From positions 4,464,001 to 4,528,000 of the forward strand of contig NZ_CP108046.1 in NCBI RefSeq assembly GCF_041435115.1: a stretch of 64,000 nt of DNA, given 5' to 3'. Below are positions 35,101 through 53,151 of the stretch, in pieces; within the stretch, counting starts at the first letter, position 1; the number at the start of each line of letters is the position of its first letter. The notes below the pieces were generated by a model that was given only the letters and a program-made list of their open reading frames with translations, was not told where the DNA came from and ran no database searches. The position numbers were made by a program, and so were the translations under genes. This DNA comes from Streptomyces sp. NBC_00289. GTDB taxonomy: Bacteria; Actinomycetota; Actinomycetes; Streptomycetales; Streptomycetaceae.

Positions 35101-35247
35101 CTTCCCGCACACGAACGAAAGCGGAGCGCCACAGGATGCGGCCGACCCGGCGGCCCCTGCCCACGACCGGTGACACAGCCGTAACGTGTGGTGCGCCACC
35201 GGAGCGACCCGGTGACCACGGAACGCACGAAAGTGAGGCAGCACTCC

Positions 35248-36471
35248 ATGCCCCCCTTCGATGTCCCCGAGGGCGACCCCTTCGGCCCGCACAACCTTCC
35301 GTACGGCGTGTTCTCACTCCCCGGCTCCACGGAGCGGACGGTCGGTGTGCGGCTCGGCGACGCCGTCCTCGACGCGGGCGCGGCGGCCGCGGCACTCGGC
35401 TCGCCGTACATCTCCCTGCTGGCGCGGCCGTCCCTGAACCCGCTGCTGGCCGCCGGCCGGACCGCGTGGTCCGACGTACGGCGTGCGCTGACCGCGTGGG
35501 TGACCGTGCCGTCCCACCGGGAGGTCATCGAGCCCCTGTTCCACCCGCTGTCGTCGGTGACGCTGCACCTCCCCTTCGAGGTCGCGGACTACGTCGACTT
35601 CTACGCCTCCGAGAACCACGCCCGGAACGTGGGCCAGATCTTCCGCCCCGACGCGGCCGACTCCCTGACGCCCAACTGGAAGCACCTGCCCATCGGCTAC
35701 CACGGCCGCGCGGGCACGGTGGTGGTGTCCGGCACCGATGTCGTACGACCGTCCGGGCAGCGGAAGGCCCCCTCCGACGCGACGCCCGTGTTCGGCCCGT
35801 CCGTCCGCCTGGACATCGAGGCGGAGGTCGGCTTCGTGGTCGGCGCGCCCTCGCGGCTCGGCCGGCCCGTGGACCTCGCCGACTTCCGGGACCACGTCTT
35901 CGGGGTCTGCCTGCTCAACGACTGGTCCGCCCGGGACATCCAAGCCTGGGAGTACGTCCCGCTCGGCCCGTTCCTCGGCAAGTCCTTCGCCACGTCGGTG
36001 TCGGCGTGGATCACCCCGCTGGACGCGCTGGACGACGCGCGGGTGTCACCGCCCGCGCGGACGCACCCCCTGCTGCCGTATCTCGACGACGCCGACGACG
36101 AACCCGGCGGCTACGACCTGCGCATCTCGATCGCGATCAACGGTCACGTGGTCTCCGAACCCCCCTTCTCCACCATGTACTGGACGGCCGCCCAGCAACT
36201 CGCCCAGATGACCGTCAACGGGGCCTCCCTGCGCACCGGCGACCTGTACGGCTCGGGCACGGTGAGCGGTCCGACGGAGCGGGAACGCGGTTCGCTGCTG
36301 GAACTGACCTGGAACGGCCGCGATGCCCTGGAACTCCCCGACGGCAAGCGGGCGTTCCTGGAGGACGGGGATGTGGTCACGATGTCGGCGTGGGCGCCGG
36401 GACCGGGCGGCACCCGGGTCGGACTGGGAGAGGTCACCGGACGGGTGGTGCCGGCGGACCACGACGGCTGA
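35248..36471 (+). CDS. Fumarylacetoacetase
   Basis: A 407-residue fumarylacetoacetate hydrolase, last step of tyrosine/homogentisate catabolism, giving fumarate and acetoacetate. An N-terminal SH3-like domain (about 1-105) precedes the FAH barrel. Metal ligands are D117 in YVDFYASENHARNVG, E191 and E193 in LDIEAEVGFVVG, and D225 in NDWSARDIQAWEYVPLGPFLGKSF; H124 is the catalytic base. ATG 35248 is chosen because MPPFDVP...GDPFG is the family's usual beginning; an in-frame upstream stretch is not conserved. No other tyrosine-degradation genes are adjacent. Confidence 0.94.
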   Translation: MPPFDVPEGDPFGPHNLPYGVFSLPGSTERTVGVRLGDAVLDAGAAAAALGSPYISLLARPSLNPLLAAGRTAWSDVRRALTAWVTVPSHREVIEPLFHPLSSVTLHLPFEVADYVDFYASENHARNVGQIFRPDAADSLTPNWKHLPIGYHGRAGTVVVSGTDVVRPSGQRKAPSDATPVFGPSVRLDIEAEVGFVVGAPSRLGRPVDLADFRDHVFGVCLLNDWSARDIQAWEYVPLGPFLGKSFATSVSAWITPLDALDDARVSPPARTHPLLPYLDDADDEPGGYDLRISIAINGHVVSEPPFSTMYWTAAQQLAQMTVNGASLRTGDLYGSGTVSGPTERERGSLLELTWNGRDALELPDGKRAFLEDGDVVTMSAWAPGPGGTRVGLGEVTGRVVPADHDG

Positions 36472-36498
36472 CAGCAACGGGGTCGCCCTGCCCGCGGG

Positions 36499-36698
36499 GG
36501 CGTCACCGAACTTCCCGCGGGCGTCACGAGAACCTCCCGCCCGGCTTCACGGGAACTTCCCGCCCGGCGTCATGCGAACGTCCTGCCTGGCGTCCCGGAA
36601 CTTCTCGCCGGGCGTCGTGGGAGGCTTCCAGCCGGGCGTCCCGGAGCTTCATGCCGGGCGTCACGGAGGCTTCCCGCCGGGCGATTCGGGAGACGTCC
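36499..36698. repeat. Intergenic 21-24-bp minisatellite
   Basis: Nine units starting GGCGTC (or GGCTTC, GGCGAT) begin at 36499, 36520, 36543, 36566, 36589, 36611, 36635, 36657 and 36680. A typical unit is GGCGTCACGGGAACTTCCCGCC in outline, with length drifting between 21 and 24 bp, so it is not coding. Between it and the M56 start (36699-36845) I see nothing else. Confidence 0.8.
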
Positions 36699-36845
36699 GG
36701 CTTTGCCCCTGACTCCTGTCGCCCGCGCGGTCATACTTACGGCAGGCGATGCATGTGCGGTGCCGACACGCGCACCGCCCCGCACCGCCCCGCACCACCT
36801 TGCCCTTTGGCCGCACCCTCCCGAACAGGACCCGGAGCCCGTGGC

Positions 36846-37784
36846 ATGACTGTCTGCCTGCTCCTGCTGAGTGTCGTCGCCGTGACGGCCGCCGTGCCGG
36901 TTCCGCGTGCGCTGACCCGGTCCGAATGGCCGGACCGGGAACCCGTGGTCGCGCTGTGGGTGTGGCAGTGCCTGGTCGCCACCGTCCTGCTGTGCTGTCT
37001 GACGGCCCTGGTCCTGGGTGCGGCGGCCGTCTTCCACACCGTCCGCGACCACGTCTTCGCCCCGGCACCGCCGGCCGTGACCGCGGCGTACGACCTGTCC
37101 ACGGCCCCGCCGTGGGCGGTCGCCCTCACCGTGCTGCTGGCCTGCGGGGCCGCCTGGACCACGGCGATGATCGCCCGGGAACTCGTCGAGGCCCGCCGGC
37201 GCCGCGGCCAGGCGCGGGCGCACCTGCGGGAACGCGCCCCAGACCTGCCCGCCGGTCTGCCTCCCGCCCGCGGCCCCATGCTGGTCCTGGAGGACGAGTA
37301 CCCCGACGCCTGGTGGATGCCCGGCCATCCGCCCCAACTGGTCGTCACCACCGGGGCGCTGCACCGCCTCACCGACCACCAGCTCGACGCCGTCCTCACC
37401 CACGAGCGCGGTCACGCGCGCGCCCGCCACGACTGGCTGCTGCACCTCTCCACCGCGCTGGCCACGGGCTTTCCCCGCATCCCCCTCTTCGCCCACTTCT
37501 GCGACCAGACCCACCGGCTGGTGGAACTCGCCGCCGACGACACGGCATCCCGGCGTTGCGGCCACCTGACCACCGCCCTGGCTCTCATCGAACTCAACCA
37601 GCACCGAGGCGTCCTGTCCTGCGCCTCCAGCCACCGCCTCCTCGGCGAACGCGTCGACCGTCTCCTCCAGCCCCCGCCCCGTCTCGGCCGCGGAAACCGG
37701 GCCCTGACGACGACGGTGGCGGCGCTGGTGCCCCTGGTTCCGCTCCTGATCACCTTCGCGCCGGGCCTGACCGCACTGTCGTAG
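36846..37784 (+). CDS. M56-family (BlaR1-like) membrane metallopeptidase
   Basis: A 312-residue membrane protease. Hydrophobic segments occur at about 2-20, 35-65, 90-110 and 285-308. The zinc site is H186-E-R-G-H190 in VLTHERGHARARHDW with E at LVELAADDTA as third ligand. BlaR1-type proteins cleave a BlaI/MecI repressor; most Streptomyces M56 genes sit beside a BlaI gene, but here no such partner is adjacent, and there is no penicillin-binding sensor domain. Transcribed in the same direction as the following GntR gene, 202 bp apart. Confidence 0.85.
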   Translation: MTVCLLLLSVVAVTAAVPVPRALTRSEWPDREPVVALWVWQCLVATVLLCCLTALVLGAAAVFHTVRDHVFAPAPPAVTAAYDLSTAPPWAVALTVLLACGAAWTTAMIARELVEARRRRGQARAHLRERAPDLPAGLPPARGPMLVLEDEYPDAWWMPGHPPQLVVTTGALHRLTDHQLDAVLTHERGHARARHDWLLHLSTALATGFPRIPLFAHFCDQTHRLVELAADDTASRRCGHLTTALALIELNQHRGVLSCASSHRLLGERVDRLLQPPPRLGRGNRALTTTVAALVPLVPLLITFAPGLTALS

Positions 37785-37934
37785 CCACACAGGGCTGTCC
37801 CGCCCGGCGGCGCCATCGACCTCCCCCGAACCCATGGGCGCGAGCGGTCGGACAAGGCGGTCCCCGGTGGCAGATCTTCTCGACCGTCGGCGAAAGCCCC
37901 AGCTCAGAGAGGCGAGCGGCGGGTCGGCGGGTGG

Positions 37935-37956
37935 CGCAACACTTCCGCAACACCAC
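37935..37956. promoter_or_regulatory. Direct repeat before the GntR gene
   Basis: CGCAACACTTC (37935-37945) is followed at once by CGCAACACCAC (37946-37956), an 11-bp direct repeat 30 bp before the ATG. It may be a regulator-binding site; a -10-like TATCGT lies at 37974-37979. Confidence 0.3.
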
Positions 37957-37986
37957 TCCCGCCCGGCCGCCGCTATCGTCCGACGC

Positions 37987-38772
37987 ATGGCAAACGACCG
38001 CATCCGAGACCACGCCGGACAGGGCGCGACCACCGTCGCGGCCCACCGCGCGCGGCGCCGGCTGCGCGCCGACCAGGCCCGGCAACTCGCCGACCTGCTG
38101 CGCCACCAGCTCCTCGGCGACGGCTTCCCGGACGGCACCCTCCCCCACGAGTCCACCCTGGCCACCGACTACGGCGCGACCCGCAACACGGTCCGCCAGG
38201 CCCTGGACCTCCTGCGCGCCGAAGGCCTCGTGGAACGCCTACCCGGCGTGGGCACCGTGGTCGTCGCCCGGAAGTACCCGCACGGCCTCGACTGTCTGAT
38301 GGGCCTCGCGGAAACCCTGCACGAGCACGGCCGGGTCACCAACGAGGTCCGCACCATGGGCCCCGCCCCCGCACCCGCCCCCGTCGCCGAACGCCTCCAC
38401 GTCCCACCCGGCACCGACGTCCTCTACATCGAACGCCTGCGCCGCCTGGGTGGCCTTCCCCTCTCCCTCGACCTCACCTACATCCCCCTCGACCTCGGCA
38501 CCGCCCTGCTCGGCGCCGATCTGGAGAACACCGACGTCTTCCGCCTGCTGGAAGCCGTCACCGGCCAGCGCCTCGGCCACGCCGAGATCACCCTGGAGGC
38601 GGTGAACGCGGACGCCCACTCCGCCGCCGTACTGGAAGCGCCACGCGGCGCCGCCGTCCTGATGCTGGAACGGCTCACGCACTTCGCCGACGGCCGTCCC
38701 GTCGACCTCGAGTTCATCCGCTTCCGCGGCGACCGCATCACGATGAGCGGCCTGCTGCACCGCTCCGTCTGA
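37987..38772 (+). CDS. GntR-family regulator with UTRA ligand domain (HutC type)
   Basis: A 261-residue repressor-type protein. The winged helix is about 25-95 (RQLADLLRHQLLGDGF, LPHESTLATDYGATRNTVRQALDLLRAEGLV, LPGVGTVV). The UTRA domain covers about 110-255 (LHVPPGTDVLYIERLRRLGGLPLSLDLTYIP, GAAVLMLERLTHFADGRPVDLEFIRFRGDR). HutC-type regulators sense a small metabolite of the pathway they control. It lies 110 bp upstream of, and in line with, the ferredoxin-transporter-flavoprotein block, so it is the natural candidate regulator of that block. Confidence 0.9.
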   Translation: MANDRIRDHAGQGATTVAAHRARRRLRADQARQLADLLRHQLLGDGFPDGTLPHESTLATDYGATRNTVRQALDLLRAEGLVERLPGVGTVVVARKYPHGLDCLMGLAETLHEHGRVTNEVRTMGPAPAPAPVAERLHVPPGTDVLYIERLRRLGGLPLSLDLTYIPLDLGTALLGADLENTDVFRLLEAVTGQRLGHAEITLEAVNADAHSAAVLEAPRGAAVLMLERLTHFADGRPVDLEFIRFRGDRITMSGLLHRSV

Positions 38773-38794
38773 ACCGCCCCTTCTTCGCTTCCCC

Positions 38795-38820
38795 GACGAC
38801 ACCTCGAAGCCGAGGTCGTC
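38795..38820 (+). terminator. Possible weak terminator or attenuator after the GntR gene
   Basis: GACGA-CA-CCTCG (38795-38806) can pair with CGAGGTCGTC (38811-38820), leaving a two-base bulge and a 4-nt loop. It lies 22 bp after the GntR stop and 62 bp before the ferredoxin start. Confidence 0.35.
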
Positions 38821-38882
38821 CTCCCCACGCGCCCCTTCGCCACGCCCACCTTTCCGCGAGTAGGACCTCCCTGGAGACAGCC

Positions 38883-39110
38883 ATGCCCTTGGCGCCCCAG
38901 CGGGCCGATGTGCCCGTGACCATCGACGAGTCGAAGTGCATCGACGGCTGCACGCTCTGCGTGGACATGTGCCCGCTGGACTCCCTCGCCATCGACGAGA
39001 GCAACGGCAAGGCCTACATGCACGTCGACGAGTGTTGGTACTGCGGCCCGTGCGCGGCCCGCTGTCCCACCGGAGCCGTCACGGTCAACATGCCCTATCT
39101 GCTCCGGTGA
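38883..39110 (+). CDS. AprB-like 2x[4Fe-4S] ferredoxin
   Basis: A 75-residue iron-sulfur protein with eight cysteines for two [4Fe-4S] clusters: C19, C23, C26, C30-P (the first motif has three residues between the first two cysteines) and C51, C54, C57, C61-P in ECWYCGPCAARCPTGAVTVNM. The second half closely resembles AprB, the beta subunit of dissimilatory APS reductase. With the AprA-like flavoprotein at 42171 it should form a heterodimer in which the ferredoxin carries electrons to or from FAD. ATG 38883 follows GGAGA by 6 nt. The gene is first in a five-gene run and 16 bp before the binding-protein gene. Confidence 0.9.
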   Translation: MPLAPQRADVPVTIDESKCIDGCTLCVDMCPLDSLAIDESNGKAYMHVDECWYCGPCAARCPTGAVTVNMPYLLR

Positions 39111-39126
39111 GAGGTCCCGAACTCCC

Positions 39127-40476
39127 GTGAAACATCCAGCAGTCACCGCCACCACGGCCGCGCTCGCCCTCCTCCTCCCGCTCACCGCCTGCGGCGGCAG
39201 CGCCGAGGCCGGCGACGGCTCCACGGTCACCGTGACCGTGGGCTACCAGTCCAAGACCATCAACACGGTCACCGCCGGAACCCTCCTTCGCTCCCTCGGC
39301 TCCTTCGAGAAGGAACTCGACGCGCTCGGCGACGGCATCACCTACAAGGTGAACTGGCAGGACTACGCCACCGGCGCCCCCATCACCGCCCAGATGACCG
39401 CGGGGAAGATCGACATCGGCTCGATGGGCGACTTCCCGCTCCTCATCAACGCGGCCCGCGGCAAGCAGCTCGGCAAGCCGACCCACCTGGTCTCGGTCAC
39501 CGGCTACAACCTCCGCGGCGGCCTCAACACCATCGTCACCGCCCCGGGCTCCAAGCTCGCCTCCCTCACCGACCTGCGCGGCAAGAAGGTGTCGACGAGC
39601 GTCGGCTCGGCCGCCGACGGCACTCTCGTGCGGGCCCTGCAACGCGCCGGCATCGACCCCGACAAGGGCGTCGAGAAGCTCAACCAGCAGCCCGCGGTGG
39701 GCGCCTCCGCCCTCGCCGCGGGCAGCACGGACGCGCTCTCGCAGTTCGTGGCCTGGCCCGGCCTGCTCGCCTACCAGGGCAAGGCGAAGGCGCTGTACGA
39801 CGGTGCCCAGCTGAACCTGCCCACCTTCCACGGCGTCACCGCCCGCGAGGACTTCGCCGAGAAGCGCCCGGCCGTGCTCGAGGCCTTTCTCAGGGCCCAG
39901 GCGGAAGCCACCGACTACCTCGGCGAACACCCCGTGGCCGCCGCCGAGAAGGTCGCCGGCGCCACCGGCCTGCCCGCCGAGGTCGTCTACCTCTACAACG
40001 GCGCCCACGGCATCGCCACCTTCGACCCGGCGATCAAGCCCCAGCTCGTCTCCGCCCTGAAGCAGGACGTGTCGGTCCTGAAGTCGGCCAAGCTGACCGG
40101 TGACGTGGACGTGGACTCCTTCGTCGACGACCAGTACGTCAGGAAGGCCCTCGGCACGGACTACGCCAAGCGCCTCGCCGCCGCGCCCGCACCGGCCGCG
40201 AGCGAGGTGTGGCCCAAGGGCGCCACCGAGACCCGTGCCTTCAAGTCCCCCGCGCAGCTGCTGCGTTACGTCGCCGAGCACCCGGACGGCATCCGCGCCG
40301 CGTACGTCCCCGACGCCACCACCGGCACCCTGTGGTTCGCCGACAGGGCGGTCTGGGTGGCCGACGGCGACCAGCTCCTCCCCTTCGTCGCACCGGCGAC
40401 CGCGCGGGCCTACGCCGCCGGGCACGGTGGCGCCCGCGTCGTCACGTACGCCGACGCGCTGGAGCGGGCGTCATGA
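39127..40476 (+). CDS. SsuA/NMT1-type ABC substrate-binding lipoprotein with NosL-like tail
   Basis: A 449-residue lipoprotein: lipobox LTAC (C22). Residues about 30-345 are a nitrate/sulfonate/taurine-type binding domain (VGYQSKTINTVTAGTLLRSLGSFEKEL, MTAGKIDIGSMGDFPLLINA, VSTSVGSAADGTLVRALQRAG, FLRAQAEATDYLGEHPVAAAEK). The last about 95 residues are extra for the family and resemble NosL: FKSPAQLLRYVAEHPDG, AAYVPDATTGTLWFADRAVWV and ARAYAAGHGGARVVTYADAL. The metal-binding Met/Cys of true NosL are absent. GTG 39127 start. The stop overlaps the permease start by ATGA. Substrate unknown. Confidence 0.85.
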   Translation: MKHPAVTATTAALALLLPLTACGGSAEAGDGSTVTVTVGYQSKTINTVTAGTLLRSLGSFEKELDALGDGITYKVNWQDYATGAPITAQMTAGKIDIGSMGDFPLLINAARGKQLGKPTHLVSVTGYNLRGGLNTIVTAPGSKLASLTDLRGKKVSTSVGSAADGTLVRALQRAGIDPDKGVEKLNQQPAVGASALAAGSTDALSQFVAWPGLLAYQGKAKALYDGAQLNLPTFHGVTAREDFAEKRPAVLEAFLRAQAEATDYLGEHPVAAAEKVAGATGLPAEVVYLYNGAHGIATFDPAIKPQLVSALKQDVSVLKSAKLTGDVDVDSFVDDQYVRKALGTDYAKRLAAAPAPAASEVWPKGATETRAFKSPAQLLRYVAEHPDGIRAAYVPDATTGTLWFADRAVWVADGDQLLPFVAPATARAYAAGHGGARVVTYADALERAS

Positions 40477-41325
40477 GCCGGTATGCGCTGCGGGTGGGCT
40501 CGCTGGCCGCCGCCCTCGGCCTCTGGCAACTGCTGACCAGCAGGGACGTCGACCTGTGGCTGCGCTTCTCGCAGTTCCCGACCGTCGCCGACGTGGCCCG
40601 CACCTTCGCCGAACGGCTGTCCGGCCCCGACTACTGGACGGACCTCACCGACAGCCTCACCCGCATCGTCACCGGCTTCCTCCTCGCCGCCGTCCTGGGC
40701 GTGGCCACCGGTGTGCTGGTGGCCCGCTCCCGCCTGGCCGAGGACCTGCTCGGTCCGCTTCTCGAGGTGATCCGCCCGATCCCGGCGATCGCCCTCGTCC
40801 CCGTCGCCATCCTCCTCTTCCCCTCCAACGAACAGGGCATCGTCTTCATCACCTGCACCGCCGCCTTCTTCCCGGTCCTGGTCTCCACCCGGCACGCGGT
40901 CCGCGCGCTGACCCCCGTGTGGGAGGAGGCGGTGCGGACCATGGGCGGCGGCCGGTGGCGGATCCTCGGCTCGGTCGTCCTGCCGGGCGCGCTGCCCGGC
41001 ATCTTCGGCGGCCTCTCGGTCGGCATCGGCGTCTCGTGGATCTGTGTGATCTCCGCCGAGATGATCTCCGGTCAGTACGGCGTCGGCTACCGCACCTGGC
41101 AGGACTACACAGTGGTCGACTATCCGGCCGTGTTCGTCGGCATGGTCACGATCGGCGTGCTCGGCTGGATCACCTCCACCGCCGTGGAGCTGCTCGGCCG
41201 CCGCCTCACCCGCTGGCTGCCGCGCACCTCGTACGTCCCCGGACTCCGCGCCCCCCGTGCCCGCGCCACCGCCCCCGTGCCCGTGCCCGTGACGGGGAGC
41301 ACCAGGACGAAGGGAGAGGTGCCCC

Positions 41326-41342
<17 letters not shown>
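40473..41342 (+). CDS. SsuC/TauC-type ABC transporter permease
   Basis: A 289-residue integral membrane protein with about six TM segments and the cytoplasmic loop EEAVRTMGGGRWRILGSVVLPGALPGIFGGLSVG (about 150-183), the EAA motif of the nitrate/sulfonate/taurine group. The C-terminal 35 residues are a Pro/Arg/Ala-rich tail. ATG start overlaps the binding-protein stop; the 3' end overlaps the ATPase gene by 17 bp. It forms the importer channel with the neighbouring binding protein and ATPase. Confidence 0.92.
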
Positions 41343-42099
<757 letters not shown>

Positions 42100-42104
42100 T
42101 CCGC

Positions 42105-42163
42105 GGACATCCGGTCCCGGAACATCCGCTCCCCGAACATCCGGTCCCCGAACATCCGAAAGG
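42105..42163. repeat. 15-bp repeat in the gap before the flavoprotein gene
   Basis: GGACATCCGGTCCCG (42105), GAACATCCGCTCCCC (42120), GAACATCCGGTCCCC (42135) and a partial unit at 42150 fill most of the 71-bp gap. The last unit ends just before the AAAGG ribosome-binding site. Confidence 0.8.
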
Positions 42164-42170
42164 CAGCCTG

Positions 42171-45100
42171 GTGGACACCTTGGTGGAGATCCCCGCCCTC
42201 GCCGACGCCGAGGAACTCTCCTGCGACGTCCTCGTGATCGGCGGCGGCACCGCCGGCACCATGGCGGCCCTGACCGCCGCCGAACAGGGCGCGAACGTGC
42301 TGCTGCTGGAGAAGGCCCACGTCCGGCACTCCGGCGCACTCGCCATGGGCATGGACGGCGTCAACAACGCCGTCGTCCCGGGCCGGGCCGAGCCCGACGA
42401 CTACGTCGCCGAGATCACCCGCGCCAACGACGGCATCGTCGACCAGTCCACCGTCCGCCAGACCGCCACCCGCGGCTTCGCCATGGTCCAGCGCCTCGAG
42501 TCGTACGGCGTGAAGTTCGAGAAGGACGAGCACGGCGAGTACGCCGTCCGCCAGGTGCACCGCTCCGGTTCGTACGTGCTGCCGATGCCGGAGGGCAAGG
42601 ACGTCAAGAAGGTCCTGTACCGGCAGCTGCGGCGGCGCGAGATGCGGGAACGGATCCGGATCGAGAACCGGGTGATGCCGGTGCGTGTGCTGACGGCGGG
42701 CGAGGGCGCCGACCGGCGGGCCGTGGGGGCGGCCGGCTTCAACACCCGCACCGGGCGGTTCGTCTCCGTCCGCGCGGGTGCGGTGATCCTGGCGACCGGC
42801 GCCTGCGGCCGACTCGGACTGCCCGCGTCCGGCTACCTGTACGGCACGTACGAGAATCCGACCAACGCGGGCGACGGCTACGCCATGGCCTACCACGCGG
42901 GCGCCGAGCTGACCGGCATCGAGTGCTTCCAGATCAACCCGCTGATCAAGGACTACAACGGCCCGGCCTGCGCCTACGTCGCCAATCCCTTCGGCGGCTA
43001 CCAGGTCAACCGGCACGGCGAGCGCTTCGTCGACTCCGACTACTGGTCCGGCCAGATGATGGCCGAGTTCGCCGCGGAGGTCGCCTCCGACCGGGGCCCG
43101 GTGTACCTGAAACTGAGCCACCTTCCGGAGGAGTCGGTGTCGGCCCTGGAGTCGATCCTGCACTCGACGGAACGCCCGACCCGCGGCACCTTCCACTCGG
43201 GCCGCGGCCACGACTACCGCACCCACGACATCGAGATGCACATCTCGGAGATCGGCCTGTGCGGCGGCCACTCGGCCTCGGGCGTCCGCGTCGACGACCA
43301 CGCCCGCACCACCGTCCCCCGGCTCTACGCGGCCGGCGACCTCGCCTGCGTTCCGCACAACTACATGATCGGCGCGTTCGTCTTCGGCGACCTGGCGGGC
43401 GCGGACGCCGCCCGGTACCCGGCGTACGAAGGGGAGCTTCCCGTGGACCAGCTCCGTGAGGCGCACGAGCTCGTCTACCGCCCGCTGCGCCACCCGGAGG
43501 GCCCGCCGCAGCCCCAGGTCGAGTACAAACTGCGCCGCTTCGTGAACGACTACGTGGCCCCGCCGAAGTCCGGCGCCCGGCTGTCGCTCGCCCTGGAGGC
43601 GTTCGAGCGCATGCGCGACGACATCGCCGAGATGGGCGCCCGCACCGCGCACGAGCTGATGCGCTGCGCCGAGGTCACCTTCATCCGCGACTGCGCGGAG
43701 ATGGCCGCCCGCGCCTCCCTGGCCCGTACGGAATCCCGCTGGGGCCTCTACCACGACCGCATCGACCACCCGCAACGCGACGACGCGTCCTGGTTCCACC
43801 ACCTCGATCTGCACAAGTCCCCCTCTGGTGCGATGGAGTTCACGGCTCGTCCCGTGGCTCCCTATCTGGTGCCGGTCGAGGAGTTCACCCCGACCGGCGG
43901 TCCTTCCCGGCATCTGGGCGAGGTCCTCGCCGAGGACGTGGCGACCGCCGGGTCACGGGACCTGGCGCCGATGGCGGCCGGTGCCGAGGAGACCGGTGCC
44001 GAGGGGACCGGGTCGGATCGCCCGGGTGCCGTCCCGGACGGCCCGGCCTTCCAGCCCGCCCCCGGACAGTCCTCGGGCCGCCTCCTCGAACTCGTCGCCC
44101 TCGCCGAGGAGCAGCCCGAACTCGACGCCCTGCGGCCGTACCTGACCGACCCTGTGCCGGCCGTCCGGCGTGAGGCCGTCGCCGTCCTGACCGAGGCGCT
44201 GCCGCCGGGGACGGGCCCGGCGCTCGCCGAGGCACTCCGCGACCCCGCCGCCGAGGTGCGCGCCGCCGCCGCGGCATCCCTGCGCGAGCTCGTCGAGACG
44301 CTGCCGCCCGAACCCGCGCTGCGGGACGGCCTCGGCGCCGCGCTGACCGAGTCCGACCCCGTCGTCCGCGCCGCCGCGCTCGACGTACTGCGCGCCCTGC
44401 GCCTCGGCGACACCGCGCTGTTCGCGGCCTCGCTGGCGGACCCGGACACCGCCGTCCGCATCGAAGCCGTCCGCGCGCTGGTATCGGTCGACGCCGCCGA
44501 GGAGCTCGCCCGAGCGGGGGCCGCCGACCCGTCGCGCGAGGTCCGCGTCACCATCGCCAAGGCCCTGGCCACGGTGTCCGCGGGCCGCCTCGGCCACCAG
44601 CAAGCCACGGGCCCTTCAAGCCGGCCCGGCGACCGGCAGGTCGCAAAGCCCTCAAGCCCGCTCGAAGACCGACAGGTCACAGCGCCTTCAAGCCCGCTCG
44701 GCGACCAACAGACCACGGCACCTTCAAGCCCGCTCGAACACCGCGAGACCCCGGCACCTTCAAGCAAGCTCCAAGACCGGCAGGCCACAGCGCCTTCGAG
44801 CCCGCTCGGCGACCGGCAGACCACGGCACCTTCAAGCAAGCTCCAAGACCGGCAGACCACAGCACCTTCAAGCCCGCTCGAACACCGCGAGACCCCGGCA
44901 CCTTCAAGCAAGCTCCAAGACCGGCAGGCCACAGCGCCTTCAAGCCTGCTCGGCGACCAACAGGCAACGGCACCTTCAAGCCCGCTCGGCGACCAGCCCA
45001 GCGCCTCGCCCGACCCCGTGCGCTCGGCCCTCTCCGAGCTCATCGACGACGCCGACGCCCTGGTGCGCGCGGCCGCCTACGGGGCGCTCGGCACGGCCGG

Positions 45101-45377
45101 CTGCCCGGAGCCGTTCGCCGCACGGGCCGTCGCCGCTCTGTCCGACCCGGCGTGGCAGGTGCGGGCCGGCGCGGCCACCGCCCTGTCGGCGGCTGCCCCC
45201 GACCTGGCCGTACCGGCCCTGGCCAAGGCCCTCGCGGACGCGAACGCCGATGTCCGCAAGGCGGCCGTGCTGTCCCTGACCCGGCATTCCGGCGCCGAAG
45301 ACGCCCGCGTGGCCCTCGCCACGGCGACCACGGACTCCGACGCCGACGTCAGGGCGTACGCCACACGCGCCCTGTGA
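42171..45377 (+). CDS. AprA-like FAD flavoprotein fused to HEAT repeats
   Basis: A 1068-residue protein. Residues about 15-610 are a fumarate-reductase/APS-reductase-type flavoprotein: FAD-binding DVLVIGGGTAGT (19-30), the AprA-like HVRHSGALAMGMDGVNN (50-66), LATGACGRLG, NPTNAGDGYAMAYHAGAELTGIECFQINP and the second dinucleotide site PRLYAAGDLA. From about 640 to 800 comes a HEAT/PBS-lyase-type helical repeat array (AVRREAVAVLTEAL, DPAAEVRAAAAASLREL), then eleven 12-residue APSSPL repeats (808-939), then more HEAT units to the end. GTG start 7 nt after AAAGG. With the AprB-like ferredoxin it probably forms a two-subunit redox enzyme; the substrate is unknown. The HEAT extension is far beyond AprA's usual length. 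Confidence 0.88.
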   Translation: MDTLVEIPALADAEELSCDVLVIGGGTAGTMAALTAAEQGANVLLLEKAHVRHSGALAMGMDGVNNAVVPGRAEPDDYVAEITRANDGIVDQSTVRQTATRGFAMVQRLESYGVKFEKDEHGEYAVRQVHRSGSYVLPMPEGKDVKKVLYRQLRRREMRERIRIENRVMPVRVLTAGEGADRRAVGAAGFNTRTGRFVSVRAGAVILATGACGRLGLPASGYLYGTYENPTNAGDGYAMAYHAGAELTGIECFQINPLIKDYNGPACAYVANPFGGYQVNRHGERFVDSDYWSGQMMAEFAAEVASDRGPVYLKLSHLPEESVSALESILHSTERPTRGTFHSGRGHDYRTHDIEMHISEIGLCGGHSASGVRVDDHARTTVPRLYAAGDLACVPHNYMIGAFVFGDLAGADAARYPAYEGELPVDQLREAHELVYRPLRHPEGPPQPQVEYKLRRFVNDYVAPPKSGARLSLALEAFERMRDDIAEMGARTAHELMRCAEVTFIRDCAEMAARASLARTESRWGLYHDRIDHPQRDDASWFHHLDLHKSPSGAMEFTARPVAPYLVPVEEFTPTGGPSRHLGEVLAEDVATAGSRDLAPMAAGAEETGAEGTGSDRPGAVPDGPAFQPAPGQSSGRLLELVALAEEQPELDALRPYLTDPVPAVRREAVAVLTEALPPGTGPALAEALRDPAAEVRAAAAASLRELVETLPPEPALRDGLGAALTESDPVVRAAALDVLRALRLGDTALFAASLADPDTAVRIEAVRALVSVDAAEELARAGAADPSREVRVTIAKALATVSAGRLGHQQATGPSSRPGDRQVAKPSSPLEDRQVTAPSSPLGDQQTTAPSSPLEHRETPAPSSKLQDRQATAPSSPLGDRQTTAPSSKLQDRQTTAPSSPLEHRETPAPSSKLQDRQATAPSSLLGDQQATAPSSPLGDQPSASPDPVRSALSELIDDADALVRAAAYGALGTAGCPEPFAARAVAALSDPAWQVRAGAATALSAAAPDLAVPALAKALADANADVRKAAVLSLTRHSGAEDARVALATATTDSDADVRAYATRAL
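44592..44987 (+). repeat. 11 x 36-bp in-frame tandem repeat in the flavoprotein gene
   Basis: Eleven units of exactly 36 bp encode 12-residue repeats such as GDRQATAPSSPL, EHRETPAPSSKL and QDRQTTAPSSPL. A stretch beginning AACACCGCGAGACCCCGGC occurs at 44737 and again at 44881, exactly 144 bp (four units) later, with about 75 bp nearly identical, showing block duplication. Confidence 0.92.
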
Positions 45378-45472
45378 CGGCACGGACGACGGCGCCCGGG
45401 GCGTGCGTGTGCGTGTTCAGGCAGGTGCGCCGGGCACGGCCAAGACGCCGGCGCGCCCCGCCCCGCCCACCG

Positions 45473-47617
<2,145 letters not shown>

Positions 47618-47688
47618 CGTCCTGTCCCCCGTACGTCGTCCCTCGACCACTGCGTCCACCATAGGGGCCGCCGCCGACAACGCCGGAG

Positions 47689-47697
47689 TTATCCACA
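47689..47697 (+). promoter_or_regulatory. DnaA-box-like site upstream of recQ
   Basis: TTATCCACA, the classical DnaA box, 72 bp upstream of the recQ start. The flanking GTTATCCACAGGCTG matches 14 of 15 bases at 49579-49593 in nuoN. The rest of the 346-bp gap (47618-47963) holds the nuo terminator and no gene. Confidence 0.4.
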
Positions 47698-47911
47698 GGC
47701 TGCCGGACGTGGACCACCTCAAGGACACGGCTGCCGTTCGCTCGTTCGATGAAGGCCGGTGGTCATCGGCAGGTGGACGACGTAGGCCGCGTGCCCGGCG
47801 GCCACCCGTTTCCGGCCGGTGACCCTTCCGGTGGCCCTCACCGACCTCGGCCCTCACCGGTTCCGGTCGCGTCACGGCGAGCGCGCGGGGCGGGCACCGC
47901 GCCGACGGCAG

Positions 47912-47943
47912 CGGCCCGGCACCCTCCTGCGGGTACCGGGCCG
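47912..47943 (-). terminator. Terminator of the nuo operon
   Basis: CGGCCCGGCACC (47912-47923) and GGTACCGGGCCG (47932-47943) form a 12-bp stem with one mismatch and an 8-nt loop. It lies 21 bp beyond the nuoN stop in the direction of transcription. Confidence 0.75.
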
Positions 47944-47963
47944 ACCTGGACGGTCGTGCGACC

Positions 47964-49613
47964 TCAGCGCACGAACACGCCCGCCTGGTTCGCCAGGTCC
48001 AGGAAGTACTGCGGCGCCACACCGAGCACCAGCGTCACCGCCACGCCGACCCCGATCGCGGTCATCGTCAGCGGCGAGGGCACGGCGACCGTCGGGCCGT
48101 CGGGCCGCGGCTCGCTGAAGAACATCAGCACGATCACCCGGATGTAGAAGAACGCCGCGATCGCCGACGAGATCACACCGACCACGACCAGCGGGGCCGC
48201 GCCGCCCTCCGCCGCCGCCTTGAACACGGCGAACTTCCCGGCGAACCCGGAGGTCAGCGGGATGCCCGCGAAGGCCAGCAGGAACACCGCGAAGACGGCC
48301 GCCACCAGGGGCGAACGACGGCCGAGCCCCGCCCACTTGGACAGGTGCGTCGCCTCACCGCCCGCGTCCCGCACCAGTGTCACGACGGCGAAGGCGCCGA
48401 TCGTGACGAAGGAGTACGCGGCCAGATAGAACAGGACGGACGACACACCGTCCGGCGTGGTCGCGATGACACCCGCGAGGATGAATCCCGCGTGTGCGAT
48501 GGACGAGTACGCCAGCAGTCGCTTGATGTCGGTCTGCGTGATCGCCACGATCGCACCGCCCAGCATGGTGATGATCGCGACGCCCCACATGACCGGCCGC
48601 CAGTCCCAGCGCAGGCCGGGCAGGACGACGTACAGGAGCCGGAGCAGCGCGCCGAACGCCGCCACCTTGGTCGCCGCCGCCATGAACCCGGTCAGCGGGG
48701 TCGGAGCGCCCTGGTAGACGTCCGGCGTCCACGCGTGGAAGGGCACCGCGCCCACCTTGAACAGCAGCCCCATGACGATCAGCGCGGAGCCGATCAGCAG
48801 CAGCGCGTCGTTGCCCATGGTGCCCACGAGGGCGGGGTCGACGGTGGTGATCGTGCCGTCGACGACCTGCGCGATCGTCGCGTACGACACCGAGCCCGCG
48901 TAGCCGTAAAGCAGCGCGATGCCGAACAGGGTGAAGGCGGAGGCGAACGCGCCGAGCAGGAAGTACTTGACCGCGGCCTCCTGCGACAGGAGCCGCTTGC
49001 GGCGGGCCAGCGCGCACATCAGGTACAGCGGCAGTGAGAAGACCTCCAGGGCCACGAAGAGCGTCAGCAGGTCGTTGGCCGACGGGAAGACCAGCATGCC
49101 GGCGACGGCGAACAGCAGCAGCGGGAACACCTCGGTGGTGGTGAACCCGGCCCGCACCGCGGCCTTCTCGCTGTCACTGCCCGGCACGGAGGCGGCCTGC
49201 GCGGCGAACGAGTCGACCCGGTTGCCGTGCGCCTCCGGGTCCAGCCGCCGCTCGGCGAAGGTGAACAGACCGACCAGGCCCGCCAGCAGGATGGTCCCCT
49301 GCAGGAAGAGAGCCGGGCCGTCGACCGCGATCGCGCCCATCGCCGCGATGCGGGCCTTGCTGGTGCCGTACCCGTCCGCCGCGAGCGCGACGACCGCGGC
49401 GAAGGCGGCGATGAGCGCCACGGCGGAAAGGAACACCTGGACGTAGTAGCGGGATTTACGCGGTACGAACGCCTCTACCAGCACCCCGACGATCGCCGCT
49501 CCGACGACGATCAGGGTGGGCGACAACTGTGCGTACTCGATCTTCGGCGCGTCGATCTTCGAGATCGGGTCGGCCGCGGTTGTCCACAGGCTGTGGACGG
49601 CTGCTGCGCTCAC
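47964..49613 (-). CDS. nuoN: NADH-quinone oxidoreductase subunit N
   Basis: A 549-residue antiporter-like membrane subunit of complex I, about 14 TM helices. Core residues of the proton channel are visible in [18 protein letters not shown] (conserved Glu) and [38 protein letters not shown] (conserved Lys residues). GTG 49613 overlaps the nuoM stop by GTGA. It is the last gene of the operon and is followed by a hairpin. The N-terminal codons contain the palindrome GTCCACAGGCTGTGGAC. Confidence 0.96.
49580..49588 (+). promoter_or_regulatory. DnaA-box-like site in the start of nuoN
   Basis: TTGTCCACA followed by GGCTGTGGAC forms the 17-bp palindrome GTCCACAG-G-CTGTGGAC (49582-49598), which holds two inverted DnaA-box-like 9-mers within coding sequence. 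It may be chance or a binding site. Confidence 0.35.
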
Positions 49614-51181
49614 TTGGCCGCCTCCACCTCGGGCTGGGGGTCCGTTTTGTGTACGTCGGACATGGTCTTCTCCACCGCTGGGTTGACGATGTCCGTGAGG
49701 GGCTTCGGGTAGACGCCCAGGAAGATCAACAGCACGATCAGCGGGGCGACGACCACGAGCTCGCGCACCCTGAGGTCCGGCATCGCGGAGACCTCCGCCT
49801 TCACCGGGCCGGTCATCGTCCGCTGGTAGAGGACGAGGGTGTACAGCGCGGCGAGCACGATGCCGAAGGTGGCGATGATGCCGATCACCGGATAGCGCGC
49901 GAACGTGCCGACCAGGACCAGGAACTCGCTCACGAACGGCGCGAGGCCGGGCAGCGACAGGGTCGCCAGACCGCCGATCAGGAAGGTGCCGGCCAGGATG
50001 GGAGCGACCTTCTGCACACCGCCGTAGTCGGCGATGAGCCGCGAGCCGCGCCGGGAGATCAGGAAGCCGGCCACCAGCATCAGCGCGGCCGTCGAGATCC
50101 CGTGGTTGACCATGTAGAGGGTCGCGCCCGACTGTCCCTGACTGGTCATCGCGAAGATGCCCAGCACGATGAACCCGAAGTGCGAGATCGACGCGTACGC
50201 CACCAGCCGCTTGATGTCCCGCTGGCCGACGGCGAGCAGCGCCCCGTAGATGATGCTGATCAGCGCCAGTACGAGGATGACGGGCGTCGCCCACTTGCTC
50301 GCCTCCGGGAACAGCTGGAGGCAGAAGCGGAGCATCGCGAAGGTGCCCACCTTGTCCACGACCGCCGTGATGAGCACCGCGACCGGGGTGGTGGCCTCCT
50401 GCATGGCGTTGGGCAGCCAGGTGTGCAGCGGCCACAGCGGCGCCTTCACCGCGAACGCGAAGAAGAAGCCCAGGAAAAGCCAGCGTTCGGTGTTGGTCGC
50501 CATGTCGAGCGAGCCGTTGGCGCGCGCCTCGGCGATCTCCTGGAGCGAGAAGTTCCCGGCGACCACATAGAGGCCGATCACCGCGGCCAGCATGATCAGA
50601 CCGCCGACCAGGTTGTAGAGGAGGAACTTCACGGCGGCGTACGACCGTTGCGTGGAGGCCGCCTCCTCGCCGTGCTCGTGGGCCCGGTCCCCGAAGCCGC
50701 CGATGAGGAAGTACATCGGGATCAGCATGGCTTCGAAGAAGATGTAGAAGAGGAAGACGTCGGTGGCCTCGAAGGAGATGATCACCATCGCCTCGACGGC
50801 CAGGATCAGGGCGAAGAAGCCCTGGGTGGGCCGCCAGCGCGTGTTGCCCGTCTCCAGCGGGTCGGCGTCGTGCCAGCCCGCGAGGACGATGAACGGGATC
50901 AGCAGGGCGGTCAGCGCGATCAGCACCACCGCGATGCCGTCCACACCCAGCTCGTACCTGACTCCGAAGTCCGCGATCCAGGAGTGTGACTCGGTGAGCT
51001 GGTAGCGGCTGCCGCCCGGGTCGAAGCGCACCAGGACGACGACGGCCAGGGCGAGGGTGGCGAGCGAGACGAGCAGCGCCAGCCACTTGGCGGCGGTGCG
51101 TCGCGCGGCCGGTACGGCGGCCGTGGCGACCGCCCCGATCGCGGGAAGCGCCGCCGTCGCTGTCAGCAGAGGAAAGGACAT
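49610..51181 (-). CDS. nuoM: NADH-quinone oxidoreductase subunit M
   Basis: A 523-residue antiporter-like proton-pumping subunit of complex I. FILYIFFEAMLIPMYFLIG carries the conserved Glu of the channel, and LWPLHTWLPNAMQEATTPVAVLITAVVDKVGTFAML the conserved Lys. ATG 51181 lies 5 bp after the nuoL stop. Length and topology (about 14 TM) are normal. Confidence 0.96.
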   Translation of the reverse strand: MSFPLLTATAALPAIGAVATAAVPAARRTAAKWLALLVSLATLALAVVVLVRFDPGGSRYQLTESHSWIADFGVRYELGVDGIAVVLIALTALLIPFIVLAGWHDADPLETGNTRWRPTQGFFALILAVEAMVIISFEATDVFLFYIFFEAMLIPMYFLIGGFGDRAHEHGEEAASTQRSYAAVKFLLYNLVGGLIMLAAVIGLYVVAGNFSLQEIAEARANGSLDMATNTERWLFLGFFFAFAVKAPLWPLHTWLPNAMQEATTPVAVLITAVVDKVGTFAMLRFCLQLFPEASKWATPVILVLALISIIYGALLAVGQRDIKRLVAYASISHFGFIVLGIFAMTSQGQSGATLYMVNHGISTAALMLVAGFLISRRGSRLIADYGGVQKVAPILAGTFLIGGLATLSLPGLAPFVSEFLVLVGTFARYPVIGIIATFGIVLAALYTLVLYQRTMTGPVKAEVSAMPDLRVRELVVVAPLIVLLIFLGVYPKPLTDIVNPAVEKTMSDVHKTDPQPEVEAAK

Positions 51182-51186
51182 CGGTA

Positions 51187-53151
51187 TCAGACCGCCCTCA
51201 TCAGCAGGGTCGCGGCGACGAGAAGGGCCGCACCGCCGAACATCGAGACCGCGTACGACCGCGCGAAGCCGTTCTGCAGCCGCCGCAGTCGCCCGGAGAG
51301 CCCGCCGACCGAGGCCGCCGTGCCGTTGACGACACCGTCGACCAGGGTGTGGTCGACGTACACCAGGGAGCGCGTGAGGTGCTCGCCGCCGCGGACCAGC
51401 ACGACGTGGTTGAAGTCGTCCTGGTACAGGTCGCGCCGGGCCGCCCGGGTCAGCAGCGAGCCGCGCGGGGCGTGGACCGGGACCGGACGGCGCCCGTACT
51501 GGGCGTAGGCGATGGCGACACCGACGACCAGGACGACCATCGTGGCCAGGGTGACCGTCGTCGCGCTGACCGGCGAGTCCCCGTGGCTGTGCCCGGTGAC
51601 GGGCTCCAGCCAGTGCAGGAAGCGGTCGCCGATGCTGAACAGGCCACCCGCGAAGACCGATCCGAAGGCCAGCACGATCATCGGGATCGTCATGGACCGG
51701 GGCGATTCGTGGGGGTGCGGTTCGGCGTGATCGCCGTGGTGCGCGGCCGCGGGCTCCGCACTCGGCTCCTCGGGGGACCGCGTCGCCCGGTTCTTCCAGC
51801 GCTCCTCACCGAAGAACGTCATCAGCATCACGCGCGTCATGTAGAACGCCGTGATCGCCGCACCCAGCAGGGCCGCGCCGCCGAGGATCCAGCCCTCGGT
51901 GCCGCCCTTGGCGAACGCCGCCTCGATGATCTTGTCCTTGGAGAAGAAGCCGGACAGGCCCGGGAAGCCGATGATGGCGAGGTAGCCGAGGCCGAAGGTG
52001 ACGAAGGTGATCGGCATGTACTTGCGCAGGCCGCCGTACTTCCGCATGTCGACCTCGTCGTTCATGCCGTGCATGACCGAACCGGCGCCGAGGAACAGTC
52101 CGGCCTTGAAGAAGCCGTGCGTCACCAGGTGCATGATCGCGAAGACGTAGCCGATCGGGCCGAGGCCCGCGGCGAGCACCATGTAGCCGATCTGCGACAT
52201 CGTCGAGCCGGCCAGCGCCTTCTTGATGTCGTCCTTCGCGCAACCGACGATCGCACCGAACAAAAGCGTGACGGCACCGACGACGGTGACGACGAGCTGC
52301 GCGTCGGGCGCGCCGTTGAAGATGGCGGCGGAGCGGACGATCAGGTAGACGCCCGCGGTCACCATCGTCGCGGCGTGGATGAGGGCCGAGACCGGGGTCG
52401 GGCCCTCCATCGCGTCCCCGAGCCAGGACTGCAGGGGTACCTGGGCGGACTTGCCGCAGGCGGCGAGCAGGAGCATCAGGGCGATCGCGGTGAGCTTGCC
52501 CTCGCTCGCGTCCCCGGCGATCCCCCCCTCCTGGTAGGTGCCGAGCAGCGGGCCGAAGGCGAAGGTGCCGAAGGTGGTGAACATCAGCATGATCGCGATC
52601 GACAGGCCCACGTCGCCGACGCGGTTGACCAGGAAGGCCTTCTTCGCCGCGGTGGCCGCGCTGGGCTTGTGCTGCCAGAAGCCGATCAGCAGGTAGGAGG
52701 CGAGACCGACGCCCTCCCAGCCGACGTAGAGCAGAAGGTAGTTGTCGGCGAGGACGAGGAGCAGCATCGCCGCGAGGAACAGGTTCAGGTAGCCGAAGAA
52801 GCGGCGGCGGCGTTCGTCGTGCGCCATGTACCCGACCGAGTACAGATGGATCAGCGAGCCGACGCCCGTGATCAGCAGGACGAACGTCATCGACAGCTGG
52901 TCGACGCGGAAGGCGACGTCGGCCTGGAATCCCTCGACCGGCACCCAGGTGTACAGGTGCTGCAGCAGGGTCCGGTCCTCGGCGCTCCTGCCGAGCAGGT
53001 CGACGAAGAGGACGACACCGAGCACGAAGGAGACGGCCGCGAGTGCCGTGCCGATCCAGTGGCCGACGGCGTCGAGGCGCCGGCCGCCGCACAGCAGTAC
53101 GGCCGCTCCGAGCAGTGGCGCCGCCACCAGCAGCGCAATCAGGTTCTCCAC
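51187..53151 (-). CDS. nuoL: NADH-quinone oxidoreductase subunit L
   Basis: A 654-residue antiporter-like subunit, the distal proton pump of complex I, with the long lateral helix at the C-terminus. Key segments are [37 protein letters not shown] (channel Glu) and [34 protein letters not shown] (channel Lys region). A His-rich loop ([16 protein letters not shown], about 475-490) is an insertion of the kind often variable in NuoL. GTG start 14 bp after the nuoK stop. Confidence 0.96.

Follow-up and report, generated by a model that had tools for sequence, protein, structure and literature searches.

Which compound enters the cell through the importer encoded in a six-gene cluster of Streptomyces sp. 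NBC_00289, and what does the flavoenzyme encoded beside it do with that compound? The cluster lies in a window of 64,000 nucleotides, positions 4464001-4528000 of the first contig of an 11.0 Mb assembly with 6 contigs, and encodes a regulator, a ferredoxin, a three-component ATP-binding cassette (ABC) importer and a flavoprotein fused to HEAT repeats. An earlier note on this DNA had proposed an undescribed uptake-plus-redox system for an organosulfur or organonitrogen compound. Here, we propose that it is a sulfur-scavenging operon, which imports a sulfonate-type anion whose sulfur is freed by an AprAB-like enzyme, a proposal in which we have about even confidence. Its uptake function and architecture are well supported, and its substrate and reductive chemistry are what we infer. 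The idea of an uptake-plus-redox system is upheld as far as a sulfonate-type system goes; as the putative substrate, organosulfur is favoured by the neighbouring genes and the binding-protein fold, and organonitrogen finds little support.

A recurrent six-gene module

All six genes are located on the forward strand at 37987..45377, where the earlier note had placed them, and each assignment is supported by the reading frames together with Pfam and NCBIfam matches. The ferredoxin, importer and flavoprotein genes are indeed close or overlapping, with intergenic gaps of 110, 16, -4, -4 and 71 bases in gene order. Because two joints overlap by 4 bases and one gap is only 16 bases, the six genes would form one transcript.

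A profile scan of genome contigs yielded at least 589 confirmed loci, and the best 80 of these, all actinobacterial, were analysed. Additionally, 51 plasmid records matched and 18 were opened, one from Tsukamurella (an actinobacterium) and the rest mostly from proteobacteria or cyanobacteria. Of the 80 actinobacterial loci, 75 are untruncated in the sense of having 4.6 kb or more of sequence ahead of the flavoprotein gene. The full set of six genes is found on the same strand in 72 of these 75, and this repetition argues that the arrangement is not due to chance. The exceptions are L118, L136 and L161, the last of which has its GntR gene and extra transporter genes further upstream, so that this miss depends on the distance limit. 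The regulator gene holds an equal position in most actinobacterial loci. In the plasmid loci, the flavoprotein and ferredoxin genes occur together in 18 of 18 cases and with a complete importer in 15, the importer being incomplete within the stretch in L064, L066 and L068. The association of importer and flavoprotein, which the earlier note had suggested surveying, is thus borne out in both sets.

The flavoprotein exceeds the PRK13800 cut-off in 42 of 121 genomes of the genus and the PRK08275 cut-off in 12 of 396 Actinomycetota genomes. The operon is seen in Streptomyces, Nocardia, Mycobacterium, rhizobia, Paraburkholderia, Cupriavidus and Acinetobacter, and its core also in cyanobacteria. Its regulators on plasmids vary, with GntR/UTRA proteins in 7 of 18 loci, Crp/Fnr proteins in rhizobia and Methylobacterium, and LysR proteins in two cyanobacteria. 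As annotated, a DUF971/gamma-butyrobetaine-hydroxylase-like gene accompanies the module in 10 of the 18 plasmid loci and an Mrp/NBP35 gene is near it in 3, all cyanobacterial; we take both gene types to point to iron-sulfur maturation.

In 17 of the 18 opened plasmid loci, a gene of its own encodes the HEAT part (annotated in L080 as two overlapping pieces), and the fused form is found in Tsukamurella; two of the unfused HEAT proteins align with the C-terminal portion of NF010374. Fusion and neighbourhood tie the HEAT part to the enzyme, for which it may act as a scaffold or maturation domain. A metal site in it was considered and dropped, since no nearly invariant Cys or His was found among 16 aligned HEAT parts. 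In the window, a 36-base repeat at 44596-44995 codes for about 130 low-complexity residues in APSSPLGDRQT-like units. Full-length Streptomyces homologues are mostly about 910-1020 residues long, compared with 1068 in the window, and the length of this linker therefore probably varies between strains.

The flavoprotein, its substrate site and the ferredoxin

The flavoprotein is a member of NF010374/PRK13800 (1629.4 bits, cut-off 1196) and of PRK08275 (856.9 bits, cut-off 587). By Pfam, it comprises FAD_binding_2, Succ_DH_flav_C and C-terminal HEAT domains, and the AprA-type segment noticed earlier, HVRHSGALAMGMDGVNN, is found at residues 50-66. PRK13800 and PRK08275 stand for protein names without tested function ("fumarate reductase/succinate dehydrogenase flavoprotein subunit"), and the name appears misleading. 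Many public proteins of this type carry the succinate-dehydrogenase name; 7,014 of 7,999 scored public protein candidates matched the flavin adenine dinucleotide (FAD) domains, not all of them necessarily being family members. One such protein, from Streptomyces sp. NPDC087903, has 99% identity to the FAD part of the window flavoprotein. The window protein falls below the cut-offs of both curated alternatives, with 127 bits for dissimilatory AprA (TIGR02061, cut-off 641.75) and 133 bits for succinate dehydrogenase/fumarate reductase (TIGR01812, cut-off 567). By sequence and by fold, its nearest solved relative is the alpha subunit of the 3'-phosphoadenosine 5'-phosphosulfate (PAPS) reductase of Methanothermococcus thermolithotrophicus (8a8o), with 26% identity in the structural alignment, and its fold is also close to FrdA.

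In a tree built from 9 of the 16 aligned family members, with an AprA row made of two segments, the family forms a separate clade (100/100). This clade stands apart from the genome's own SdhA (L001), its own PRK07803 flavoprotein (L003) and E. coli NadB, so that the tree proposed in the earlier note, here without a characterised FrdA row, places the flavoprotein outside the SdhA/NadB clade. It also lies outside the clade of FAD-type adenosine 5'-phosphosulfate (APS) and PAPS reductases, with which, together with one unidentified long row, it is joined at only 90/65. In the same tree, the flavoproteins of two Actinomycetota genomes (L046 and L047), which score above the cut-off of the PRK06854 adenylyl-sulfate reductase, group with the methanogen PAPS reductase and not with Archaeoglobus AprA.

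The predicted structure has a mean pLDDT (predicted local distance difference test) score of 70, and residues 211-233, 254-274 and 357-368, near the active site, score below 50; because the model is poor there, no pocket was read from it. Instead, 16 family members were aligned with the PAPS reductase, the N-terminal part of AprA (ending at residue 293) and NadB. Asn74 of AprA is retained as Asn65 in the family and aligns with the PAPS reductase too, and the GGH-motif His occurs in both the family (His367) and the PAPS reductase, AprA not being comparable at this position because its row ends before it; both are residues with a role in APS/PAPS reductases. Conversely, Arg265 of AprA, equivalent to Arg237 of the PAPS reductase and the substrate-binding arginine of these enzymes, is replaced by Leu258 in 16 of 16 family members, and this replacement also sets the family apart from the FAD-type APS/PAPS reductases. 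In the window protein, Trp234 of AprA (Trp206 of the PAPS reductase) is replaced by Tyr227, and Lys120 and Arg121 of the PAPS reductase, which confer PAPS traits according to the part of its description that we draw on (PMC10322725), are replaced by Val129 and His130. A stretch G-x-Y-V-L-P-M-P is invariant in the family and mostly absent from the PAPS reductase and AprA, many Arg and His residues are invariant across the family, and His244 of NadB corresponds to Asn256. By this comparison, the family shares the general architecture of AprAB but has a substrate site of its own; "AprA-like", as the flavoprotein had been called, fits its fold and architecture and not its substrate residues.

These residues bear on two other explanations. 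The system could serve sulfate assimilation as an alternative APS/PAPS reductase, in the manner of the M. thermolithotrophicus enzyme, its closest solved relative; given the differing substrate residues, the invariant stretch that both reductases mostly lack, an importer that is SsuA-like and not of the sulfate type, and a genome that encodes CysH, we consider this very improbable. Alternatively, the enzyme might transfer a hydride in the manner of fumarate reductase to a sulfonated succinate or amino-acid analogue, such as 3-sulfopropionate or cysteate, with desulfonation taking place elsewhere. The FAD_binding_2 and Succ_DH_flav_C domains, the FrdA-like fold and the many invariant Arg and His residues are in line with such chemistry, but the Asn in place of NadB His244 and the position outside the SdhA/NadB clade render it unlikely.

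The ferredoxin is likely the small electron-transfer subunit of the flavoprotein. The likeness for which it had been called AprB-like is slight and shared with other ferredoxins (TIGR02060, 36 bits, cut-off 136; HgcB, 39 bits). The mercury-methylation ferredoxin HgcB and polyferredoxin segments outscore AprB, and AprB and the PAPS reductase beta subunit rank mid-list among the solved chains that match; the protein is a ferredoxin of common type without specific likeness to AprB. All 16 aligned members share its Trp52, which may, going by the AprB motif, be the counterpart of an electron-carrying Trp. Such a role of a Trp in the PAPS reductase is proposed in the portion of the report cited here (PMC10322725).

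Sulfur context and the proposed reaction

The nearest solved fold to the predicted fold of the binding protein is SsuA, although its scores stay below the curated cut-offs for SsuA (TIGR01728, 136 bits against 163.5) and TauA (TIGR01729, 78 bits against 304). At expect values (E) up to 1, a NosL-like domain (PF05573) is detected in 14 of 15 aligned binding proteins (best E 1.3e-6), the window copy having an E of 0.0022 and lying under the Pfam gathering score. In two cyanobacterial loci, L071 (6673-8673) and L072 (6307-8343), the LysR regulators of the module are 666 and 678 residues long and score 214 and 226 bits against the binding-protein profile of the module, with an NMT1_2 match behind the LysR domains in L071, as if the regulator sensed the ligand of the module inside the cell. 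Uptake and redox conversion of a small anion other than an organosulfur compound (nitrate-like, bicarbonate-like or an N-heterocycle) is quite improbable in our view, since SsuA ranks first for the binding-protein fold and sulfonate-sulfur genes are among the recurrent neighbours.

Those neighbours were obtained by clustering over 98 loci, from which frames shorter than 80 residues, frames overlapping the core and the weaker of overlapping frames were dropped, as were, in genome loci, frames with low GC content at the third base. Two neighbour groups recur in seven loci outside Streptomyces, namely the DUF971 gene and luciferase-like (LLM-type) flavin monooxygenases. The latter are found near the operon in 16 of the 98 loci, and an example scores 467 bits (cut-off 518) for the FMNH2-dependent alkanesulfonate monooxygenase. 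Other neighbours include SsuE (215 bits, cut-off 164), an SfnB-like protein (223 bits, cut-off 431), SsuABC-like proteins and Rrf2/CymR-like regulators. Of the 55 Streptomyces loci, 4 contain SsuD at E 1e-60, as does 1 of the 25 loci from other actinobacteria, and none of the 18 plasmid loci does; the base rate in the genus, 57 matches across 61 genomes, predicts 0.13 of the 55. This enrichment above the Streptomyces base rate supports a sulfur role without proving it, because the LLM-type group was picked after its recurrence had been seen, loci from related Streptomyces cannot be counted as independent, and the query itself came from one of the four loci. The earlier remark that sulfate-activation and dissimilatory sulfite reductase genes are not near extends to the whole genome, in which neither a Sat gene nor a DsrA above cut-off was found; CysH and CysD are present.

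In another scheme, the flavoprotein and ferredoxin would do no more than feed electrons to an oxygenase encoded elsewhere, for instance SsuD, and sulfonate cleavage would be the work of that oxygenase. This has been proposed for AsfAB: the Asf proteins are described, in the section of a review used here, as a reductase/ferredoxin electron-transfer system for C–S bond oxygenation (PMC4267179). The LLM-type genes themselves, SsuE or SfnB-like genes near some copies, and TauD and a Rieske protein, each annotated near one plasmid copy, would suit such a scheme. However, the six-gene core contains no oxygenase, 82 of the 98 loci have no LLM-type gene (other oxygenase types not being counted), and the enzyme retains an FrdA/AprA-type fold with conserved residues of its own; we regard electron delivery as a minor possibility.

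We return to the sulfur-scavenging operon, for which the following order of events can be envisaged. Outside the cell, the SsuA-like protein would capture an R-SO3- anion, which the SsuBC-type transporter, as its family and fold suggest, would import; the GntR/UTRA protein may sense the imported compound or its product. The flavoprotein and the ferredoxin with two [4Fe-4S] clusters are predicted by homology to form an AprAB-like complex, in which electrons would pass from the clusters to FAD. In the least certain step, FAD would attack or reduce the substrate, and its sulfur might be freed as sulfite for cysteine synthesis. Reductive flavin attack has been proposed for APS/PAPS reductases in the pages of the PAPS reductase report that we cite (PMC10322725).

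Several points weigh against this proposal. The enzyme lacks the arginine and tryptophan of the known reductases, the ferredoxin is not specifically AprB-like, and the SsuD enrichment carries the reservations given above. The genes next to the window's own copy include no recognised sulfur gene, the SsuD-like gene of the genome lies about 4.5 Mb from the operon, the loci without an LLM-type gene are the majority, and in L077 an Asf-like gene near the operon is in broken pieces. Relatives of the GntR/UTRA regulator sense compounds of many kinds. Finally, a plain C–S bond is far harder to cleave reductively than the S–O bond of APS. S–O, S–N and S–S bonds would be easier targets than C–S bonds, and a sulfate ester, sulfamate or thiosulfonate may thus be the substrate beside a sulfonate.

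In a broader and tentative extension, which we think possible but doubtful, the module would represent a widespread oxygen-independent route to sulfonate sulfur in aerobes, with an AprAB-type enzyme that attacks the sulfur of R-SO3- and releases sulfite, a HEAT scaffold and a NosL-extended importer, in parallel to the oxygen-dependent SsuD/TauD routes. If so, AsfAB may be a catalyst too and not an electron carrier. Soil sulfonate-sulfur release is ascribed to a multi-component mono-oxygenase system in the review passages available (PMC4267179), and a sulfur-scavenging operon of the kind proposed here would add a second chemistry to it.

Layout of the locus and comparison with known systems

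Features of the operon in the window (positions within the 64,000-nucleotide stretch)
Feature	Position	Strand	Details
GntR/UTRA (HutC-type) regulator	37987..38772	+	Pfam GntR and UTRA; alternative ATG start open at 37834
Ferredoxin	38883..39110	+	75 residues; two [4Fe-4S] motifs, eight Cys
Substrate-binding lipoprotein, SsuA/TauA/NMT1 type	39127..40476	+	Pfam/NCBIfam
NosL-like C-terminal domain of binding protein	40207..40455	+	residues 361-443; PF05573
ABC permease (binding-protein-dependent), SsuC/TauC/NrtB type	40473..41329	+	Pfam/NCBIfam; 4-base overlap with binding-protein gene
ABC ATPase, TauB/SsuB/NrtD type	41326..42099	+	Pfam/NCBIfam; 4-base overlap with permease gene
PRK13800 flavoprotein fused to HEAT repeats	42171..45377	+	1068 residues; NF010374 score
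FAD domains of flavoprotein	42171..43928	+	residues 1-586; APS/PAPS-reductase alpha-like fold
HEAT repeats of flavoprotein	44088..45374	+	about residues 640-1068; Pfam HEAT_2
36-base tandem repeat	44596..44995	+	low-complexity linker interrupting HEAT repeats

The operon is flanked by a fumarylacetoacetase gene upstream and by RecQ downstream. In the region 35188-52000, the fumarylacetoacetase gene and, downstream, RecQ and an NADH-quinone-oxidoreductase-like gene, all recognised by eye as groups, are found again in 27, 22 and 27, respectively, of the 55 Streptomyces loci, suggesting that the operon occupies a stable site in some members of the genus. Ahead of the ferredoxin gene, 30 Streptomyces loci and the window share a palindrome, which was discounted because it sits within the gntR coding sequence.

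No description of the six-gene module was found in the literature searched, which covered few subscription journals. The label "undescribed" holds to that extent; NCBIfam models for the protein family exist, and a broadly similar system, asfRABC, has been described. As far as the cited part of the review goes, asfRABC comprises a binding protein, an ABC transporter, a reductase/ferredoxin pair and a LysR regulator, and an asfA transposon mutant of Pseudomonas putida S-313 cannot use aromatic sulfonates (PMC4267179). In Cupriavidus metallidurans CH34, AsfA and AsfB are Rmet_4334/4335, with asfRAB on the second replicon, according to the excerpt consulted (PMC2864759). On that replicon, a flavoprotein-ferredoxin pair lies at 927.9-929.9 kb near SsuBC-like genes, and is probably AsfAB, since its flavoprotein, one of 15 FAD_binding_2 matches there, adjoins the only ferredoxin of this type found on the replicon. 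A LysR gene was not recognised immediately next to the pair, and the frames around it showed no HEAT gene on inspection by eye, no dedicated search having been made. Another CH34 flavoprotein, at 793 kb, was set aside in favour of this pair because its frame and the downstream cysteine motifs resemble, by eye, a TcuA/TcuB pair. Directly upstream of the likely AsfAB, a fatty-acid-desaturase-like protein (PF00487) is encoded (L164, 1801-2832; megaplasmid 929983-931014).

The PRK13800-type family was not found on the second replicon of CH34, the best match to the family profile being 82.5 bits. The likely AsfA shares 30% identity with the window flavoprotein over 238 residues, scores 56 bits for PRK08275 (cut-off 587) and falls into a separate clade in the tree, so that, with this AsfA, the window protein appears not to belong to the AsfA family. 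Asf-like genes occur in 8 of 121 genomes of the genus, that of the window not among them; 6 of these 8 also carry the PRK13800 flavoprotein, compared with 42 of 121 overall (one-sided Fisher p 0.02), and in one (G106) the Asf-like gene, matched in two pieces, lies about 16 kb from the PRK13800 flavoprotein on one contig. In two Streptomyces loci, L108 (17731-20849) and L132 (614-2793), relatives of the likely AsfA with a ferredoxin match stand within about 6 kb of the operon, with transporter or binding-protein genes nearby.

Compared with the PAPS reductase (8a8o), the window system shares an alpha flavoprotein, a beta ferredoxin with two [4Fe-4S] clusters and the retained Asn and GGH His, but differs in the replacement of Arg237, Trp206, Lys120 and Arg121 and in the added importer and HEAT part. 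It resembles dissimilatory AprAB in two-subunit architecture and general fold, whereas its score below the TIGR02061 cut-off and a genome without Sat, or DsrA above cut-off, distinguish it. With ssuEADCB and tauABCD it has the transporter family and binding-protein fold in common, yet its enzyme is a flavin/[4Fe-4S] pair instead of an oxygenase, and its binding protein adds the NosL-like domain. Like asfRABC, as far as that system is set out in the review passages cited, it sets a flavoprotein and a two-cluster ferredoxin beside a binding protein and importer of the sulfonate type in aerobic soil bacteria, but asf is under LysR control (PMC4267179) and the window operon has a GntR/UTRA regulator. 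Its flavoprotein family, HEAT partner, NosL-extended binding protein and GntR regulator are different from those of asf.

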